Shown: positions 3,718 through 34,604 of the stretch, piece after piece
Position numbering within the stretch: the first letter of the stretch is position 1
Layout of the letters: the number at the start of each line of letters is the position of its first letter
Virus record (IMG/VR): IMGVR_UViG_3300001681_000003
Location: 1-34,604 of that record
From: a virus
Length of the DNA stretch: 34,604 bases
Reading direction: 5' to 3' (one strand)
Notes under the pieces: model-generated
Database searches by the model: none
Told to the model about the DNA's origin: nothing
The model's input: only the letters and a program-made list of their open reading frames with translations
Made by a program: the position numbers and the translations under genes

Positions 3718-3780
3718 ATAATTTTCTGGGTATATTAAAACCCTGTCAACCGTCAATCGACGTAAAAGGAGTTAGAGAAC

Positions 3781-4638
3781 ATGCTTGATAAAGAGCAGAG
3801 GGCAAAGATGGTAGAGGCTGCTGGTCAGCTTAATACTGTAACTGAGCCTTCGTCAGATACCTTAACTGTGGATGCCACTCTGGGAACAGATAGTGGTGCT
3901 AAGGTAGAAGACGTTAAACTAGAACCATCCGTTAAGATTGAAGTAGAGGATGTAGAACGTGTAGAGGCAGTAGCCTCAACTGAGGAGACTGATAATAGTC
4001 CTTCTCAGAAGGGACATAGTGTTCCTTACTCTCGTTTCAAGAATGTATTGGAAGGAAGGAATAAGTTCCGTAGTGAAGTAGAAGGGTATAAGACTCAGCT
4101 ATCCTCACTGGAACAAAAACTTTCTAACTTACAGACTAGATCGCAAACCCCCGTTCAGCAGACTCAAGTAGAAGAAAGTAATTGGCTCGATGAATTCTTG
4201 GCTGATGATACAACAACCCAAGTCCCAGATTGGCAAGGGAAGTATCAAGGCTTAGATGATCGTCTATATAAGTTCGAAGTTGCACAAGAAGAGAAATCTT
4301 TGAAGGCAGAACTTGTATCGATCAAAGAGCAGTATCCTGGTGTCCCAGAGCAATTCTTACTTCAGGCTGTTATCAAAGATCCCCAAGTGGATATGGCGAA
4401 AATCGCTGGTGACTATCACAGCTTTATATCAGGTATCGAAGAACAGGCTATTGCTAGGTACTCGCAAGGACATAACGTTTCTGAAACGGCTCATGCTCCT
4501 GATGCACCACCTAGACCCAAATCTGTTGGAACGTCACCTACAAAAGTTATTGGTAAACCAGAGAAACGCCCGGGCAGTCTCAAAGATGCATCTAGTGCAT
4601 TGAGGGATCTGCTTTCAAAGGATAATCCTTTTAGATAA
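3781..4638 (+). CDS. Scaffolding protein
   Basis: A 285-residue acidic, helical protein directly before the major capsid gene, the usual place for a scaffold. Residues 1-75 are acidic and disordered. VPYSRFKNVLEGRNKFR at 81-97 is a phrase I associate with podovirus scaffold-like proteins, and it runs into a coiled coil at about 90-120. The C terminus (SLKDASSALRDLLSKDNPF) is a basic/amphipathic helix suited to binding capsid protein. It would direct procapsid assembly and then leave or be degraded. AGGAG at 3767-3771 precedes the ATG, in a 16-base leader repeated at 31322-31337. Confidence 0.85.
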   Translation: MLDKEQRAKMVEAAGQLNTVTEPSSDTLTVDATLGTDSGAKVEDVKLEPSVKIEVEDVERVEAVASTEETDNSPSQKGHSVPYSRFKNVLEGRNKFRSEVEGYKTQLSSLEQKLSNLQTRSQTPVQQTQVEESNWLDEFLADDTTTQVPDWQGKYQGLDDRLYKFEVAQEEKSLKAELVSIKEQYPGVPEQFLLQAVIKDPQVDMAKIAGDYHSFISGIEEQAIARYSQGHNVSETAHAPDAPPRPKSVGTSPTKVIGKPEKRPGSLKDASSALRDLLSKDNPFR

Positions 4639-4684: not shown

Positions 4685-6067
4685 ATGGCAGCATCATTAG
4701 CTAGTTTTGCTAGTATCTTAAAAGAATTCTATCTCGGACCGATTCAGGATCAGCTTAACGAGGAAACTCTAGTCTGTGAAATGTTCGAGAAAGCTTCTGT
4801 CGATTGGAATGGTCGACAAGTAATCATTCCAGCCCACGTATCGAGAAATGCGAACGTCGGGTGGACTGCGGAAGGTGGACTCCTTCCTGGTCCTGCTATC
4901 GGTGTTATAGCCGGTGGCTCCCAGCAGGGGTATGTAAACCTTACTCTTACCGCACAAAATCTCTATGGTAGATTCCAGATTACTGGTCCCGCCATGGCTG
5001 CTGCAGGTAAGGGAGGAGCAAACTCTTTCGTTGGTTGGGTCGACGGGGAAATGAATCGCCTCGTTGCTGATGTTAAAAACAACTGTAACCGTACTGCCGT
5101 ATCAGGTGGAGATGTTGTTGGGTTCGTCACTAGTACTGGTACCATCGCTGGTGCAGGTGTTCAGGACGTCCTTGTTGATGGTGATGCGACCAAGATTGCT
5201 GCATTAGCCAATGACAACATTGCCACTGGTGTACATCTTGTCCGATTGGACACGTATGCTGTAATGGATCCGGCTGGTTGCCGGGTAGGTCCCCCTGCGG
5301 TACCTGCTCCTGGTGCAATCAGTATCACAACTCCAACGGGATTCACATTCCCAGTGGATGCTGCGGGTGGATCTGTTCCATTGGCTCTAACAGTTAACGC
5401 TGTCGGCGCTGCTGGTGCTATCTATGCTGCTCTTGGTACTGCCAATGAACCGGCAGGGATCTACCAGAACTTGGGTGCAAACGGTGCAGGTAACGCACTT
5501 GGTCAGGGTGGAGTTTGGTTCCTAGTGGATCGTACTACTGCTACTGGTACTGCAAATGCTCTGCAAATGTCGGACGGTGCAGCCGTACCAACATCAAATG
5601 CTCTATCAACTGTAACTGCGGCGACTACTCGTCAGGCTATTACTTTGGTTCAGCTTCAGACTCTGATGGATCGTATCCAGTTAGCTTCTGATGATGCTCC
5701 TGACATTCTGTTGGTTAACCCGTTACAAAGGACTCGTTTAGCAGCGATGCTCCAGGCTAACGTTCAGTTCCAAACTAGAGTTGATGGTGGAAAACCAGGC
5801 ACTGGTGACGGTGGGTTCAGTGACTTTGCTTTCGCAGGTATTCCTGTCAAGGCTTCACGCCACATGGATAATGGTCTGATTCTGGCTCTGAGTACTAAGC
5901 ATTGGAAGATGTGTGAACTTGAGGCTGGTAAGTTTGCTGATGAGGATGGCAATGTGCTATCCAGAGTCGGTACTCGTGATGCATACGAGGGTTTCTACAA
6001 GTGGTATTATAATACTGTTTGTACACGTCCTAATGCTAACGGACTTATTGCAGGTCTTACCCTTTAG
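4685..6067 (+). CDS. Major capsid protein (HK97-type fold)
   Basis: A 460-residue shell protein behind a strong AAGGAG. The N-terminal helix (ASILKEFYLGPIQDQLNEET) is followed by beta strands with IPAHVSRNANVGWTAEGG. The C-terminal third (ILLVNPLQRTRLAAM, GIPVKASRHM, then CELEAGKF) follows the P-domain/A-domain layout of HK97-type capsids encoded by podoviruses. A Gly/Ala/Thr-rich stretch around residues 190-320 looks like an inserted domain. GC content and codon choice are visibly higher than in neighbouring genes, as expected for the most abundant protein. The gene is bracketed by hairpins at 4647-4662 and 6083-6104. Scaffold lies upstream and portal downstream. Confidence 0.9.
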   Translation: MAASLASFASILKEFYLGPIQDQLNEETLVCEMFEKASVDWNGRQVIIPAHVSRNANVGWTAEGGLLPGPAIGVIAGGSQQGYVNLTLTAQNLYGRFQITGPAMAAAGKGGANSFVGWVDGEMNRLVADVKNNCNRTAVSGGDVVGFVTSTGTIAGAGVQDVLVDGDATKIAALANDNIATGVHLVRLDTYAVMDPAGCRVGPPAVPAPGAISITTPTGFTFPVDAAGGSVPLALTVNAVGAAGAIYAALGTANEPAGIYQNLGANGAGNALGQGGVWFLVDRTTATGTANALQMSDGAAVPTSNALSTVTAATTRQAITLVQLQTLMDRIQLASDDAPDILLVNPLQRTRLAAMLQANVQFQTRVDGGKPGTGDGGFSDFAFAGIPVKASRHMDNGLILALSTKHWKMCELEAGKFADEDGNVLSRVGTRDAYEGFYKWYYNTVCTRPNANGLIAGLTL

Positions 6068-6082
6068 GGTGAATATGGGTGT

Positions 6083-6104
6083 TGTCCCCTCTTCGGAGGG
6101 GGCA
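6083..6104 (+). terminator. Strong UUCG hairpin after capsid gene
   Basis: TGTCCCCTC (6083-6091) pairs over 9 positions, with one G-U, to GAGGGGGCA (6096-6104) around a TTCG tetraloop. It begins 16 bases after the capsid stop. A short T-containing stretch follows but no long U-run. It could be a partial terminator, or a 3' stabiliser that raises capsid mRNA over downstream genes. Confidence 0.65.
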
Positions 6105-6117
6105 GCATCCTTCTTGT

Positions 6118-6790: not shown

Positions 6791-8725
6791 ATGGCAAAAA
6801 TAGAATTAGAGGGGTTCCCAGCGGACTTCAAACAACTAGTAGATACCTCAGACTATCGCAAAACAACCGAAAGAAAGATTTGGGATTTAGCTTTACTGTT
6901 TCTTGAGGGTCGTCAGTGGGTCCAATATGATAACTTAGCTAAAACTAATATTGCCTCTCAGGGATCTCAGGGTCCGGCATGGAAGATTACAGTTAATCTT
7001 CTTATTAATATTTACAGAAACCTCCTTTCAAAACTATCAACAGAGTATCCATCAGTAGCAGTTACCCCTGCAACAGCAATGACAGATGATATTCTTAAAG
7101 CTCAGGCTACAGAGTTAGCTCTTAAGTATTATTGGAACCAACAGGATCTTAAAGGTAAGTTAACTAAGGCTTTCTCCTGGCTCCTTACAGCAGGTACAAC
7201 TGCACTACACTCTTATTATGATCCAGATCTAGATACTGTGACCACAGAGGTCGTCAGTCCCTATGATTTAATCTTTGAACCTTATGTTGACTCTCCAGAA
7301 GAATCAGACTGGATTGCCATACGAAGACATGTAAAACGATGGGAACTAATTAAACAGTTTCCAAAATCTAAGAAACTAATCGAGGAATCTTCAGATAGCC
7401 TCAACCCCACATCTAGACCAGGACAAGCCAGTTTAGAACAAGTCCCTGCTAATAGACTAGAAATTTACGAAGTCTATTGGAGAGATGGTAAACATGCCTT
7501 TGTCCTAGGCAGCGAGTACCTCTATAAGGGTACAAATCCATTAGTTGATATTCCTATCAGGATCATCAGATATACTGAAGTACCAGGAAAACTTTGGGGA
7601 GTTGGTCTACTAGCTCCTCTCATTGATATGCAGTGGCTTTACAATAAGTCTAGAAGCCAGGTTATTCAGAACATTGAACTAATGTCCAATCCAAAGTGGT
7701 TGATTCCTAAAACGTCAGGGATTAATCCAAATGCAATCACAAACAGAGCAGGTGAAAAGGTATTTTATAATGCTGCTGGTGGTACTCCCACACAGATAGC
7801 TGCTGCACCTCTTCCCTCCCACGTCTTTGATAATATCACTCGTCTCCAATCTGAGATGATGGACGTATCAGGAATCCACTCTACAAGCCTCGGCAAGAGA
7901 GCCGTAGGTATTACCTCGGGTAAAGCTATGCAAACCCTTGCAGAGCAGGATATGAGCCAACTGCAGGTAACCCAGCTAAGGATCGAGGAGACTATGCGAG
8001 GGGTGGCTAGAGATGTTATCAGATTGATGAAGAATTATTATAAAGAAGATAAGATGGTCCGAATGATGGATGGTCTAGGGAAGCTCATCTTTAAGCAAGT
8101 TACAAATGCAGATTATGTAGATGACCCTGAAGTCTTTATTGAAACAGGATCCTTATTCAGGTCTGAAGCTCAAGACAGGGATGCTAAGATCCTTCAGCTT
8201 TATGAACTTAAACTATTACCACCTGAAGAGGCTCTCAAGGAACTCTCGTACAAGACAGGTAACAGATTCGTTATTGAACGTATGGAAGATATGGCTCATG
8301 CTCAAGAACTTCTTGAAGCAGCAACTAGAGGTTATGAGATCGAGGTCTTTAGAACAGATAACTTAGAAGTATTCAAAGAGGTCTTTGGTGGTTATATGAA
8401 ACAACCAGAGTACTACTCTCTAGATGAAGAGACACAGAACTACCTCAGAGATATTTTTGTTGCTCTAGAGTCTGGTGGACAGCCAGTAGAACCTGAGAAC
8501 GCTCCTTCACAAGATCGAGTCTTCCCTAGAGATGTAAGTCCAAAGATTGAAGAAGCTGATGCAATCGGTGAGGTCTTTGGTCAGTCTTCTCTTAGAGGAC
8601 AACTACAAACAACAGACGCAATTGCCGGTGCTAAGGGAGCCTCGGCTGATTTTGCTAGAGCAGAACAACAGATGGCTCAGAGAAGCGAAGCATTAATATC
8701 TAAGAAGCCAGGAGGGTTTGGTTAA
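6791..8725 (+). CDS. Portal protein (P22-like)
   Basis: A 644-residue portal, the ring at the capsid vertex through which DNA enters and leaves. It opens with the family pattern of a helix followed by WDLALLFLEGRQWVQYD. Then come a NLLINIYRNLLSKLSTEYPSV segment (residues about 66-90) and a VSPYDLIFEP segment near 155. The DVSGIHSTSLG and SGKAMQTLAEQ region around 356-390 is also typical of P22-like portals. The C-terminal 60 residues are Gln/Ala-rich, like a barrel extension. It begins 2 bases after the previous stop and overlaps the adaptor gene by one base. It lies downstream of the capsid gene, the reverse of the P22 order. Confidence 0.92.
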   Translation: MAKIELEGFPADFKQLVDTSDYRKTTERKIWDLALLFLEGRQWVQYDNLAKTNIASQGSQGPAWKITVNLLINIYRNLLSKLSTEYPSVAVTPATAMTDDILKAQATELALKYYWNQQDLKGKLTKAFSWLLTAGTTALHSYYDPDLDTVTTEVVSPYDLIFEPYVDSPEESDWIAIRRHVKRWELIKQFPKSKKLIEESSDSLNPTSRPGQASLEQVPANRLEIYEVYWRDGKHAFVLGSEYLYKGTNPLVDIPIRIIRYTEVPGKLWGVGLLAPLIDMQWLYNKSRSQVIQNIELMSNPKWLIPKTSGINPNAITNRAGEKVFYNAAGGTPTQIAAAPLPSHVFDNITRLQSEMMDVSGIHSTSLGKRAVGITSGKAMQTLAEQDMSQLQVTQLRIEETMRGVARDVIRLMKNYYKEDKMVRMMDGLGKLIFKQVTNADYVDDPEVFIETGSLFRSEAQDRDAKILQLYELKLLPPEEALKELSYKTGNRFVIERMEDMAHAQELLEAATRGYEIEVFRTDNLEVFKEVFGGYMKQPEYYSLDEETQNYLRDIFVALESGGQPVEPENAPSQDRVFPRDVSPKIEEADAIGEVFGQSSLRGQLQTTDAIAGAKGASADFARAEQQMAQRSEALISKKPGGFG

Positions 8726-30237: not shown

Positions 30238-30447
30238 TTAGATAGAACAAACCAAAGTACCCCTCTTATTTCTTTTAGGAGGTTCTAGATTAATCACTAG
30301 CCTAGATGGTGAATCATAAAAGTACTCCTCCACTTCTATCTTCGCTCTCCAATTCCATTCCTTTCTCCGGTCCAATTCCATTAAGAACCTTTCCTCCGTC
30401 TTCTGCCAAGACTCCACTACTCTCGATTTGTTTCCTTTCAATCTCAC
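30238..30447 (-). CDS. Small basic protein overlapping the GIY-YIG gene
   Basis: A 69-residue frame on the minus strand starting at GTG (30445-30447) behind a perfect AAGGAGGT at 30453-30460, the strongest binding site in this operon. The first 134 bases lie inside the 3' end of the GIY-YIG gene in another frame. The protein is basic and well formed (VVESWQKTEERFLMELDRRK, then EWNWRAKIEVEEYFYDS). The end of the GIY-YIG frame over the same bases is low-complexity, so this frame may be the conserved one. I do not recognise a family. Confidence 0.6.
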   Translation of the reverse strand: MRLKGNKSRVVESWQKTEERFLMELDRRKEWNWRAKIEVEEYFYDSPSRLVINLEPPKRNKRGTLVCSI

Positions 30448-30994
30448 AGTCTACCTCCTTATAGGTTACATAGTTGAGACACTTCGCTCCGTACACAGAC
30501 TTGAAGTGTTTAATCAAAGCATACTCATTCATACGGAGATCTCGCTCCTTATCAATAAACATAAGAACATGACCTGTAATGTCTTCAGGTTCATAGAAAT
30601 TAAATAGTTTATTAGTATGCGTATTCTTAGCGACCTTAGCCCTATGTACTGCCAACCTAGCATCAAAGTTCTGGATGGTACTACCAATGTAGGTTGACCC
30701 ATCAGTGAAGAACAACTGATAGACTGCTGGTTTCTTTTTCTTCTTACTAGACTTCGCACAGTTCTTACGATGACAGGGTTTGCAAAACCTATTAAGAGCA
30801 TCCTTCTGACGTATGTCACTACCGAAGTCTGTTGCTGGTAATACCGCATGGCATTTCTTACAACCCTTCATATCCGAAGGTAACTTCTTATCCCTTTCAG
30901 CCATCTCTACTTGTGTGAAACTTTTCATATGTGTTTCCCCTGTTGGTTTCCCTGCAAAATCTAAGACAGGTACTCTAACGTTAAATATCTTCAT
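30314..30994 (-). CDS. Zinc-finger GIY-YIG endonuclease
   Basis: A 226-residue protein with a four-Cys zinc finger at residues 45-74 (CKKC, then CKPC) followed by a GIY-YIG nuclease domain at about 90-175. VYQLFF and TYIGST (102-107 region) are the signature strands. R113 and E157 in NEYALIKHF fit the catalytic Arg and metal-binding Glu. Such proteins are typical homing endonucleases of phages, cutting intronless or endonuclease-less alleles. The start ATG overlaps the stop of the upstream minus-strand gene, with AAAGGAG nearby. Residues after about 182 are overlapped by another frame and look unlike a domain. No intron is seen around it, so it would be free-standing. Confidence 0.85.
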   Translation of the reverse strand: MKIFNVRVPVLDFAGKPTGETHMKSFTQVEMAERDKKLPSDMKGCKKCHAVLPATDFGSDIRQKDALNRFCKPCHRKNCAKSSKKKKKPAVYQLFFTDGSTYIGSTIQNFDARLAVHRAKVAKNTHTNKLFNFYEPEDITGHVLMFIDKERDLRMNEYALIKHFKSVYGAKCLNYVTYKEVDCEIERKQIESSGVLAEDGGKVLNGIGPEKGMELESEDRSGGVLL

Positions 30995-31188
30995 TACTTA
31001 TAACTCCTTTCTAGTAATGCCCACCTATCTGGTTGGGCTTCTCCAACTGTAACACCTGTTGACATAGCTATCTTTAGTATGTTCAGGTCCTTCTCTAGTC
31101 TTTCTAATAATATCATCCCTCTCTTCACCTCTCCTTCTATCAGCGTAATTGTGGCTACGTAGCTGTTCGTGTTTTCTATTTTAGACAT
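30994..31188 (-). CDS. Small helical hypothetical protein
   Basis: A 64-residue protein, first gene of the minus-strand operon, behind AGGAGG a few bases before its ATG at 31188. It is mostly helical (GEVKRGMILLERLEKDLNIL), and the C-terminal segment contains QPDRWALLERSYK. It overlaps the GIY-YIG start (TAATG). A regulatory or coiled-coil interaction role is possible, but no family is recognised. The promoter is probably the minus-oriented member of the divergent pair at 31221-31321. Confidence 0.65.
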   Translation of the reverse strand: MSKIENTNSYVATITLIEGEVKRGMILLERLEKDLNILKIAMSTGVTVGEAQPDRWALLERSYK

Positions 31189-31220: not shown

Positions 31221-31235
31221 ATAACTATACCACAA
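31221..31235 (-). promoter_or_regulatory. Leftward promoter / inverted repeat arm
   Basis: On the minus strand this reads TTGTGGTATAGTTAT, with TATAGT as a -10 box. It lies about 33 bases upstream of the minus-operon start at 31188. The same 15 bases occur on the plus strand at 31307-31321, so the pair form a perfect inverted repeat across an A/T-rich centre. A -35 box 17 bases upstream is weak (TTAAAC). Confidence 0.45.
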
Positions 31236-31290: not shown

Positions 31291-31321
31291 TGTACAAATT
31301 CTGTGGTTGTGGTATAGTTAT
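31291..31321 (+). promoter_or_regulatory. Rightward promoter / inverted repeat arm
   Basis: TGTACA at 31291-31296 and TATAGT at 31313-31318 are 16 bases apart on the plus strand. The -10 lies inside the 15-base arm 31307-31321 that mirrors 31221-31235. It would start transcription near 31325, at the beginning of the stem-loop-rich region, and run into the second GIY-YIG gene. Confidence 0.45.
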
Positions 31322-31645
31322 AGGAGTTAGAGAACATAGCAGCAACATCACTGGCTGCAAACCTAGAGCAGATAAAAGCTCATTGTGGGAGAGACCCTCC
31401 CAGTTCAGGATAATGTTTGACCTCATTAGAGGTAAGCCAAAGCAACAAACGTATGGATGGCAATGAGATGAAAGGGGAAGGCAATGTCCCCGGTATGATG
31501 TGTGGTTAGGAGTTGTAGTAGGCACTGTGTTGCATAGCCTATGAGTTACAAAGCCCACAGAAACCCTGTTAGATTTTAGAGACCAACCCCTTGAAGGATT
31601 CTAGAAACGAAGTAAGGTGCCTCAAGCGTAAACTAATAGGATAGC
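31322..31645 (+). ncRNA. Candidate structured non-coding RNA
   Basis: About 325 bases without a convincing gene, G/C-richer than the flanks, and packed with short perfect inverted repeats in series. They are GCAGC/GCTGC at 31339-31358, TGGGAG/CTCCCA at 31386-31402, ACCTC/GAGGT at 31420-31433, GGGGA/TCCCC at 31474-31491, TAGGC/GCCTA at 31519-31541 and CTTGA/TCAAG at 31590-31626. A promoter candidate ends just before it, and a GIY-YIG gene follows at 31654. It matches no tRNA, tmRNA, RNase P or intron core that I can recognise. It could be a new phage RNA, a decayed intron or a long 5' leader. Confidence 0.4.
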
Positions 31646-31653
31646 TGTATCTA

Positions 31654-32088
31654 ATGAAAACTAAACCAACAAAATCAGGAAAGAAAAACAAGAAGATATC
31701 TTCTGGAAGAATTTATAAAGTGACTTGTCCTGATAAGAAATATTATATTGGATCTACTAGAAAGAAACTAAAACAAAGACTGAAGTCTCATTTTAGATAT
31801 AAGAATACTAGTCTCTATAACTACTGTCTTAAAAATAACTTTGATATCAAAGATCTTATAATAGAAGAACTAGAAAAACATGCAACATACAAGTCTGCTG
31901 AAACTAAAGAATATAAAATACTGAATAAACTAAAGTCAGACTGTAACTTATTGAATAAATTATTTAAGAAACCAACAGAGAAGCTAACTAAAAAGAAAGA
32001 GTCTAAAGTAATAAGAAGAAAGAAACAAACTCTAAGTTCTAAATCTAGACTAGAACTAGATAGAGTCAGAGCAGAACTAGAGAGCTAG
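31654..32088 (+). CDS. GIY-YIG endonuclease, small
   Basis: A 144-residue very basic protein. GRIYKVTCPDKKYYIGSTRK at about 18-37 holds both signature strands. R42 and H46 in LKQRLKSHF and a Glu in KSAETKEYKIL (about 83-86) match the catalytic set of GIY-YIG nucleases. The C terminus after residue 105 is a Lys/Arg-rich helix, probably for DNA binding. It lacks the zinc finger of the minus-strand GIY-YIG protein, and the two are not close copies. The binding site is weak (AGGAT). It lies directly after the structured-RNA candidate, a position that recalls intron-encoded homing endonucleases. Confidence 0.85.
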   Translation: MKTKPTKSGKKNKKISSGRIYKVTCPDKKYYIGSTRKKLKQRLKSHFRYKNTSLYNYCLKNNFDIKDLIIEELEKHATYKSAETKEYKILNKLKSDCNLLNKLFKKPTEKLTKKKESKVIRRKKQTLSSKSRLELDRVRAELES

Positions 32089-32136
32089 TAGTATTAAATA
32101 AATTAAAGAAAGTATGTATTATATTATAAACCCTAC

Positions 32137-32159
32137 GTCTCTTCACTACGTTCAGAGAC
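32137..32159 (+). terminator. Hairpin after second GIY-YIG gene
   Basis: GTCTCT and AGAGAC form a 6-bp stem with an 11-base loop in the 142-base gap before the next gene. No U-run follows, so it may act as a processing or weak termination site rather than an intrinsic terminator. The rest of the gap is A/T-rich and holds nothing else I can name, apart from AAAGGAGG for the next gene. Confidence 0.3.
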
Positions 32160-32230
32160 TTCGATGGTTAATTAAAATAAAAGAAACTTAAATAAATTTC
32201 CAGTAACTACTTATTAAAGGAGGTAGATTA

Positions 32231-32527
32231 ATGAAGAAGAAAAGAATAAAGAAAGAAATAAAGGTGCCTGTTCAGGAGCCAGTAATACATCCTGAGAGCA
32301 AAGCATTGCTCCCTCCTCAGCCGCCGAAGGCAACTGATCAGGGACCTGTACTGTATCTGGATGCTATAGAGCTAATGCTTTCAGCCCTTCAGTCTGAGAC
32401 TGGATATACCAGAGAGGAAATAATAGAATCAACTCTATTTGGATTGCTGACTGACAGTGCCTCACTATTCGGAGGAGCAACACAAAGGACTATATTTAAT
32501 TATGAACAAGTCAAATACAGAAAATGA
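32231..32527 (+). CDS. Hypothetical protein
   Basis: A 98-residue protein behind a strong AAAGGAGG. It has a basic N terminus (MKKKRIKKEIKVPVQEP), a Pro-rich linker (ALLPPQPPK) and a helical domain (YLDAIELMLSALQSETGYTR, then EEIIESTLF). The helical part could be a small helix-turn-helix-like or oligomerisation domain, but no clear recognition helix can be assigned. The next gene starts inside its last codons. It opens the rightward block that runs to the contig end. Confidence 0.65.
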   Translation: MKKKRIKKEIKVPVQEPVIHPESKALLPPQPPKATDQGPVLYLDAIELMLSALQSETGYTREEIIESTLFGLLTDSASLFGGATQRTIFNYEQVKYRK

Positions 32528-34458: not shown

Positions 34459-34487
34459 TTTACATTTGAGACAAAGGTTGTTATAAT
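34459..34487 (+). promoter_or_regulatory. Near-consensus sigma70 promoter
   Basis: TTTACA at 34459-34464 and a perfect TATAAT at 34482-34487 are 17 bases apart. It reads across the contig junction into the first gene. A 10-base palindrome, ATAGTACTAT at 34486-34495, overlaps the -10 and probable start site and could be an operator. This is the best promoter in the window. Confidence 0.8.
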
Positions 34488-34499
34488 AGTACTATAAGA

Positions 34500-34520
34500 A
34501 GTTGGAAATGGACACCAACT
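34500..34520 (+). promoter_or_regulatory. Leader hairpin before first gene
   Basis: AGTTGG at 34500-34505 pairs with CCAACT at 34515-34520 around a 9-base loop. It lies at the 5' end of the transcript from the promoter at 34459 and just before AAGGAG of the first gene. It may protect the mRNA or affect translation. Confidence 0.5.
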
Positions 34521-34604
34521 AAGGAGTTAGAGATATGAATAATGTAGATACAAATGGTATAAGAAATCTGGTTGAGAAGTTGCTTGAAGTAAATGAACTT
34601 AGTT
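34514..34604. repeat. Terminal direct repeat, right copy
   Basis: Exact copy of bases 1-91, including the start of the first gene (ATG at 34535 here). It should be merged with the left copy when the genome is closed; the partial gene at this end is not a second gene. Confidence 0.97.

Follow-up and report, generated by a model that had tools for sequence, protein, structure and literature searches.

A putative early-leader RNA and a free-standing GIY-YIG endonuclease gene in a genomic slot that related phages fill with a different structured RNA

The region under study lies at 31322-31645 of the window (the whole stretch of 34,604 nucleotides analysed here, IMG/VR record IMGVR_UViG_3300001681_000003), between two divergent promoter-like sites and the gene of a predicted free-standing GIY-YIG endonuclease, and its features are collected in Table 1. 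The first 91 bases of the record are identical to the last 91 (1-91 and 34514-34604, a terminal direct repeat), and the record is therefore a circularly assembled phage genome of 34,513 bp, which is probably complete. Genes for terminase, portal and capsid could be recognised in it, and no polymerase, helicase or primase was recognised among the proteins scanned, which were the larger ones. The terminase is only about 26% identical to those of the nearest GenBank phages among those listed, and the relatives used for comparison (L004, L010, L017 and others) are metagenomic contigs; we infer a marine origin for the phage. A terminase tree places the window beside L003/L010/L008 as their sister (support 94/99) and L017 in a separate clade. 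Elsewhere in the genome, a strong terminator-like hairpin (15 pairs, 9 of them G-C) is found at 6077-6110, directly 3' of the major capsid protein gene, and a strong promoter-like site (TTTACA-N17-TATAAT with TG, 34459-34487), conserved in L017 at 7509-7536, is probably where the late transcription unit begins.

Table 1. Coordinates of the features at the leader slot and around it (positions are those of the window unless a contig is named).
Feature	Position	Strand	Remarks
Mirror copy of the promoter core (TTGTGGTATAGTTAT)	31221-31235	-	15-bp inverted repeat; would drive the leftward genes 30238-31188
Sigma70-like early promoter, extended -10	31291-31318	+	TGTACA-N16-TATAGT with TG; promoter-like by sequence
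Putative non-coding hairpin-rich early leader RNA	31322-31653	+	332 nt to the nuclease start codon; hairpin excess, no coding signal, G+C contrast, homology break at 31322
Hairpin 1, GCAGC/GCTGC	31339-31358	+	pairing probability 0.84
Hairpin 2, GAGC/GCTC	31366-31381	+	pairing probability 0.84
Hairpin 3, TGGGAG/CTCCCA	31386-31402	+	pairing probability 0.87
Hairpin 4, ACCTC/GAGGT	31420-31433	+	pairing probability 0.94
Hairpin 5, GGGGA/TCCCC	31474-31491	+	pairing probability 0.88
Extended hairpin 6, TTGTA/TACAA plus GTAGGC/GCCTAT	31513-31551	+	pairing probability 0.79-0.88
3' domain closed by CCTGTTAG/CTAATAGG (31565-31572 with 31633-31640) plus ACAG/CTGT	31557-31648	+	helix probability 0.89; overlaps the AGGA 5' of the nuclease start codon
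Free-standing GIY-YIG endonuclease, 144 aa (predicted)	31654-32088	+	PF01541; missing here in relatives
Conserved hairpin after the cassette, constant loop TTCACTACGTTC, variable stem	32129-32169	+	L010 ~5846-5886; L017 ~5576-5615
Family A RNA	L004 4212-4500; L010 5515-5804; L017 5272-5545		structured, compensatory changes

Upstream of the stretch, a perfect 15-bp inverted repeat (31221-31235 with 31307-31321) provides the core for a divergent pair of promoter-like sites, of which the leftward one reads TAAACA-N16-TATAGT with TG (31251-31224). A promoter candidate immediately upstream had been part of the original prediction, and the rightward sigma70-like site found there is conserved in relatives. 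The 27-nt promoter core of L004 is identical to that of the window, the rightward promoter of L017 (TTGACA-N16-TATACT, 11/12) is a better match than the window's, and promoter-like sites face both directions in all three phages with the region (window, L010 and L017). Judged from the position of the rightward site, transcription would start at about 31324, which is also where the similarity to L004 and L010 stops (31322).

The gene downstream of the stretch matches PF01541 with 35.3 bits (cutoff 22.6), in agreement with the GIY-YIG assignment made originally, and it also matches the homing endonucleases of phrog_314. It is intergenic, lies outside any intron or intein, and is lacking at that place in the relatives, where the sole GIY-YIG match of L010 and of L017 is the leftward gene. 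On the grounds of domain and location, the protein is predicted to be a free-standing GIY-YIG homing endonuclease of the Seg type. No relatives of it were found in the viral contigs, and tblastn gave no match among the phage records of the collection. The window also codes for a second GIY-YIG protein (30314-30994, minus strand), with a CxxC-type zinc-finger-like part and matches to endonuclease VII/HNH profiles, and this gene is kept opposite the divergent promoter in L004/L010 and L017.

Hairpins in the stretch were counted as perfect stems of at least 4 bp with at least 3 G/C and a loop of up to 14. The six consecutive inverted repeats described originally are indeed present, against a mean of 2.07 in shuffled sequences (p = 0.003), and are accompanied by a seventh, weaker hairpin (GCCA/TGGC, 31436-31461); only 1.2% of equal windows of the genome reach six. 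Stems of at least 5 bp number 5 against a shuffled mean of 0.95, a count reached in none of 300 shuffles, and the perfect core of hairpin 6 is TAGGC/GCCTA (31519-31541). The G+C content, also as predicted, is higher than in the flanks (45% against 22-28%), with 0.446 in the stretch, 0.218 upstream, 0.278 in the GIY-YIG gene and 0.246 downstream; 16% of the windows of the genome are equally G+C rich. Twelve of the first 16 bases of the stretch (31322-31337) also precede the first gene of the genome, at 22.

The view that the stretch holds no convincing gene is borne out by its codon usage, which gives no gene signal (p = 0.41). By this measure the nuclease gene and 32231-32527 stand far above shuffles and are clearly coding. 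No Pfam family matches the stretch, and PHROGs gave a single chance-level match (E 0.15). A conserved protein, for which the original prediction had pointed to the 58-codon frame from 31290, was not found, as tblastn of this frame against phages returned chance-level matches only, and what is conserved in it, at its beginning, belongs to the promoter. Protein reading frames across the stretch were rejected on these results. Neither tRNA nor tmRNA was detected in the window or in L002-L012, a scan that included L004 and L010. The covariance search against Rfam (15) likewise gave no match for the window region at the gathering score and nothing above chance at E up to 10. Homologues of the window RNA were then sought by sequence: an exact 27-mer of it is absent from the viral contigs, blastn of the region against GenBank phages gave nothing beyond a chance 23-mer, and the only plasmid match, of 30 bp, is due to chance, so that no homologue was found in the viral contigs, GenBank phages and plasmids scanned.

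The homology of the window with L004/L010 ends at 31322 and restarts at 32085, which gives a slot of 763 bases in the window, compared with about 285 in L004/L010 and about as many in L017. On its flanks, the zinc-finger/GIY-YIG gene, the promoters and the rightward early genes are common to the window, L004/L010 and L017, the leftward small gene is also shared between the window flank and L004, and the flanks are 69-80% identical to those of L010. Since L004 and L010 are 99% identical in this region, the comparison of the slot comprises three distinct genomes (window, L004/L010 and L017). In L004, L010 and L017 the slot contains no nuclease gene and is filled by a different non-coding RNA of about 275-290 nt, here called family A, for which an alignment of about 239 nt between L004 and L017 shows 76% identity. 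In its predicted fold, 10 of the 80 pairs are changed on both sides yet still paired, and 95% of the cells are paired, values that were reached in none of 500 shuffles; when the partners were slid by one to three columns, pairing fell to 33-50%. The signal of compensatory changes is clear, and comes from few sequences (three, two of which, L004 and L010, are nearly identical). At E up to 10, no family of Rfam 15 matches the L004 copy, and blastn of the L017 copy against GenBank phages was without match. Family A is thus well supported as an undescribed RNA family with covariation. A two-motif pattern of it, searched for in 84,980 genomes, had one match, in an Acidobacteria contig, which was put down to chance as the covariance model gives it no support. 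Midway in the family A RNA of L017 there is a terminator-like hairpin followed by a U-rich tail; an attenuator reading was not adopted, because the conserved paired sequence runs on past this hairpin.

The RNA of the window is no detectable member of family A, because the covariance model scores members at 364 and 266 bits and the window RNA at only 7.5 bits, and blastn between the window RNA and that of the relatives shows no similarity. Folding against shuffled controls gave a divided result for the predicted structure. Taken as a whole, the stretch folds no more stably than shuffled sequence (z = -0.43), an outcome that the original prediction had named as a refutation and that counts against the explanation preferred below, while the energy of the 5' half (31338-31494) is somewhat below it (z = -1.9, p = 0.03). 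The test has little power here, because the family A RNA of L004 also reaches only z = -1.15 despite its support from compensatory changes. The original proposal of an undescribed structured RNA at this locus accordingly stands most firmly for the relatives, whose RNA combines compensatory changes with the lack of an Rfam match, and for the window's own RNA it is favoured indirectly, by the excess of hairpins, the G+C contrast, the lack of a coding signal and the position.

Beyond the end of the slot, a hairpin with a constant loop is conserved in the three phages, with compensating stems that differ between them: GTCTCT/AGAGAC in the window, GACTCT/AGAGTC in L010 and GAGTCT/AGACTC in L017. 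Its 17-mer TCTTCACTACGTTCAGA occurs exactly in at least 120 places in the viral contigs. Among the matches listed, 80% of the 79 distinct contexts have at least 3 further perfect flanking pairs, a T run is present in just 2, and the G+C content of the contigs spans 30-66%. It looks like a widespread conserved-loop hairpin, and the scan of viral contigs with the 17-mer, swamped by this unrelated motif, revealed no new phage relatives among the matches listed.

The explanation that we prefer, with about even confidence, is that the early-leader RNA slot was swapped together with a free-standing homing endonuclease, and that the RNA is the 5' leader of the early operon, most likely one that would act in cis. 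The stretch would be transcribed from the rightward arm of the divergent sigma70-like promoter, in a lineage that would maintain a structured non-coding RNA in the slot, and in the branch leading to the window the ancestral RNA would have been replaced by an unrelated, hairpin-rich one along with the GIY-YIG gene. By parsimony, family A is most simply the older state, and the window RNA with its nuclease the replacement, since the window is sister to the L010 clade and L017 lies outside, both with family A; the direction of the swap rests on this one comparison. The original suggestion that the RNA travels with the nuclease would hold to the extent that the two jointly occupy the replacing segment. 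Most likely, the nuclease would have cut a co-infecting relative, whose repair would have carried over the nuclease gene together with flanking DNA (intronless homing with co-conversion). The free-standing GIY-YIG nucleases of T4-like phages cut relatives that do not have them, and long stretches of flanking DNA are copied along with the nuclease gene during repair (PMC2988022). One such gene, segB of T4, is located between tRNA genes and favours their transmission to progeny (PMC2988022); in T6, SegB causes a tRNA gene to be amplified (PMC13096335). The layout of the present locus is in keeping with this pattern.

As for its action, the window RNA would most likely act in cis on the early transcript. 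This is favoured because the RNA would be the first product of the early promoter in all three phages, and the window stretch has no intrinsic terminator-like site on its plus strand. Action in cis is our leading guess, and it could take the form of an effect on RNA polymerase just past the promoter, as exerted by the put RNA of HK022, whose place is likewise directly 3' of an early promoter (PMC9378689); another option would be a processed or regulatory leader, and the 3' part of the RNA may in addition mask the ribosome site of the nuclease.

This masking could also be all there is to the stretch, which would then have no function of its own and be the mere 5' untranslated leader of the incoming GIY-YIG gene, with hairpins that curb translation of the nuclease as in T4 I-TevI, segB and Aeh1 mobE. 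Such ribosome-site-masking structures are documented for homing endonucleases (PMC2988022), and the 3' helix overlaps the AGGA before the start codon with high probability (0.89). We regard this as unlikely, though it is the strongest of the alternatives: the cost of opening the ribosome site, 3.1 kcal/mol, exceeds that of the median gene (1.3) but not that of shuffled leaders (p = 0.27), masking would need far less than 330 nt and six hairpins, and relatives without this nuclease still have an RNA in the slot. We give less credence again to the idea that the window RNA is a family A homologue with the same function, diverged past recognition, whose divergence shields it from its own nuclease. 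The slot and the promoter are the same, and length and G+C content are similar. In intronless homing of the T4 type, moreover, the nuclease usually adjoins a resistant version of its own target. Against this, the 7.5 bits of the family A model in the window RNA equal the score inside the nuclease gene (7.4 bits), and flanks still 69-80% identical to L010 leave such divergence of the slot standing apart.

The remaining possibilities are weaker. That the stretch is a decayed protein gene which arrived with the nuclease is very unlikely, given the absence of coding signal and of any family match, and the hairpin excess with its high G+C; it draws on a borderline resemblance, in which the first 16 bases are those of the ribosome site of gene 3781 (3767-3782; AGGAGTTAGAGAACAT; p ~0.025 against shuffles), a match that would put a mutated start codon (ATA) ahead of a 25-codon frame. 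Even less probable, in our estimation, is that the RNA and the GIY-YIG protein form one working unit, a mobile element other than an intron in which the RNA would be needed for the nuclease or guide it, and which would home into the early-RNA slots of phages. Finally, many group I introns consist of a structured RNA with a GIY-YIG gene (PMC2988022), and the two could in principle be parts of a mobile intron. No Rfam intron matches even at E up to 10, which leaves it without a catalytic core, and no gene is interrupted, as the site in relatives that lack the cassette consists only of promoter, RNA and intergenic DNA and offers no gene to be split. The intron reading was therefore rejected and is close to refuted.

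Among known systems, the put RNA of HK022, an antitermination RNA that binds RNA polymerase and suppresses terminators with no protein involved, resembles the RNAs described here in being a structured RNA right behind an early sigma70 promoter of a phage (in our case a promoter-like site), but it has about 70 nt and two stem-loops, against 275-330 nt here, with at least six hairpins in the 332 nt of the window RNA. With segB of T4 and T6 our locus shares the pairing of an RNA gene with a free-standing GIY-YIG nuclease, and relatives lack the segment or have it in another version; the RNA next to segB is a tRNA, while the one found here is not, and the nuclease of the window has no counterpart in the phage records searched. 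The Rfam structured RNAs of phages and marine bacteria are likewise non-coding, folded and several hundred bases long, but neither the window RNA nor the L004 copy of family A has a match among their families.

Genes fill phage genomes densely, so the presence of a non-coding RNA at this place in all the relatives seen, though of more than one type, suggests that the slot serves a function. Family A adds to this an undescribed RNA family, supported by covariation, from a small phage in which replication genes are not recognisable. If the nuclease-linked swap took place as proposed, it would extend to an RNA other than tRNA the theme set by segB and its tRNA genes, that of selfish nucleases which move and multiply RNA genes.
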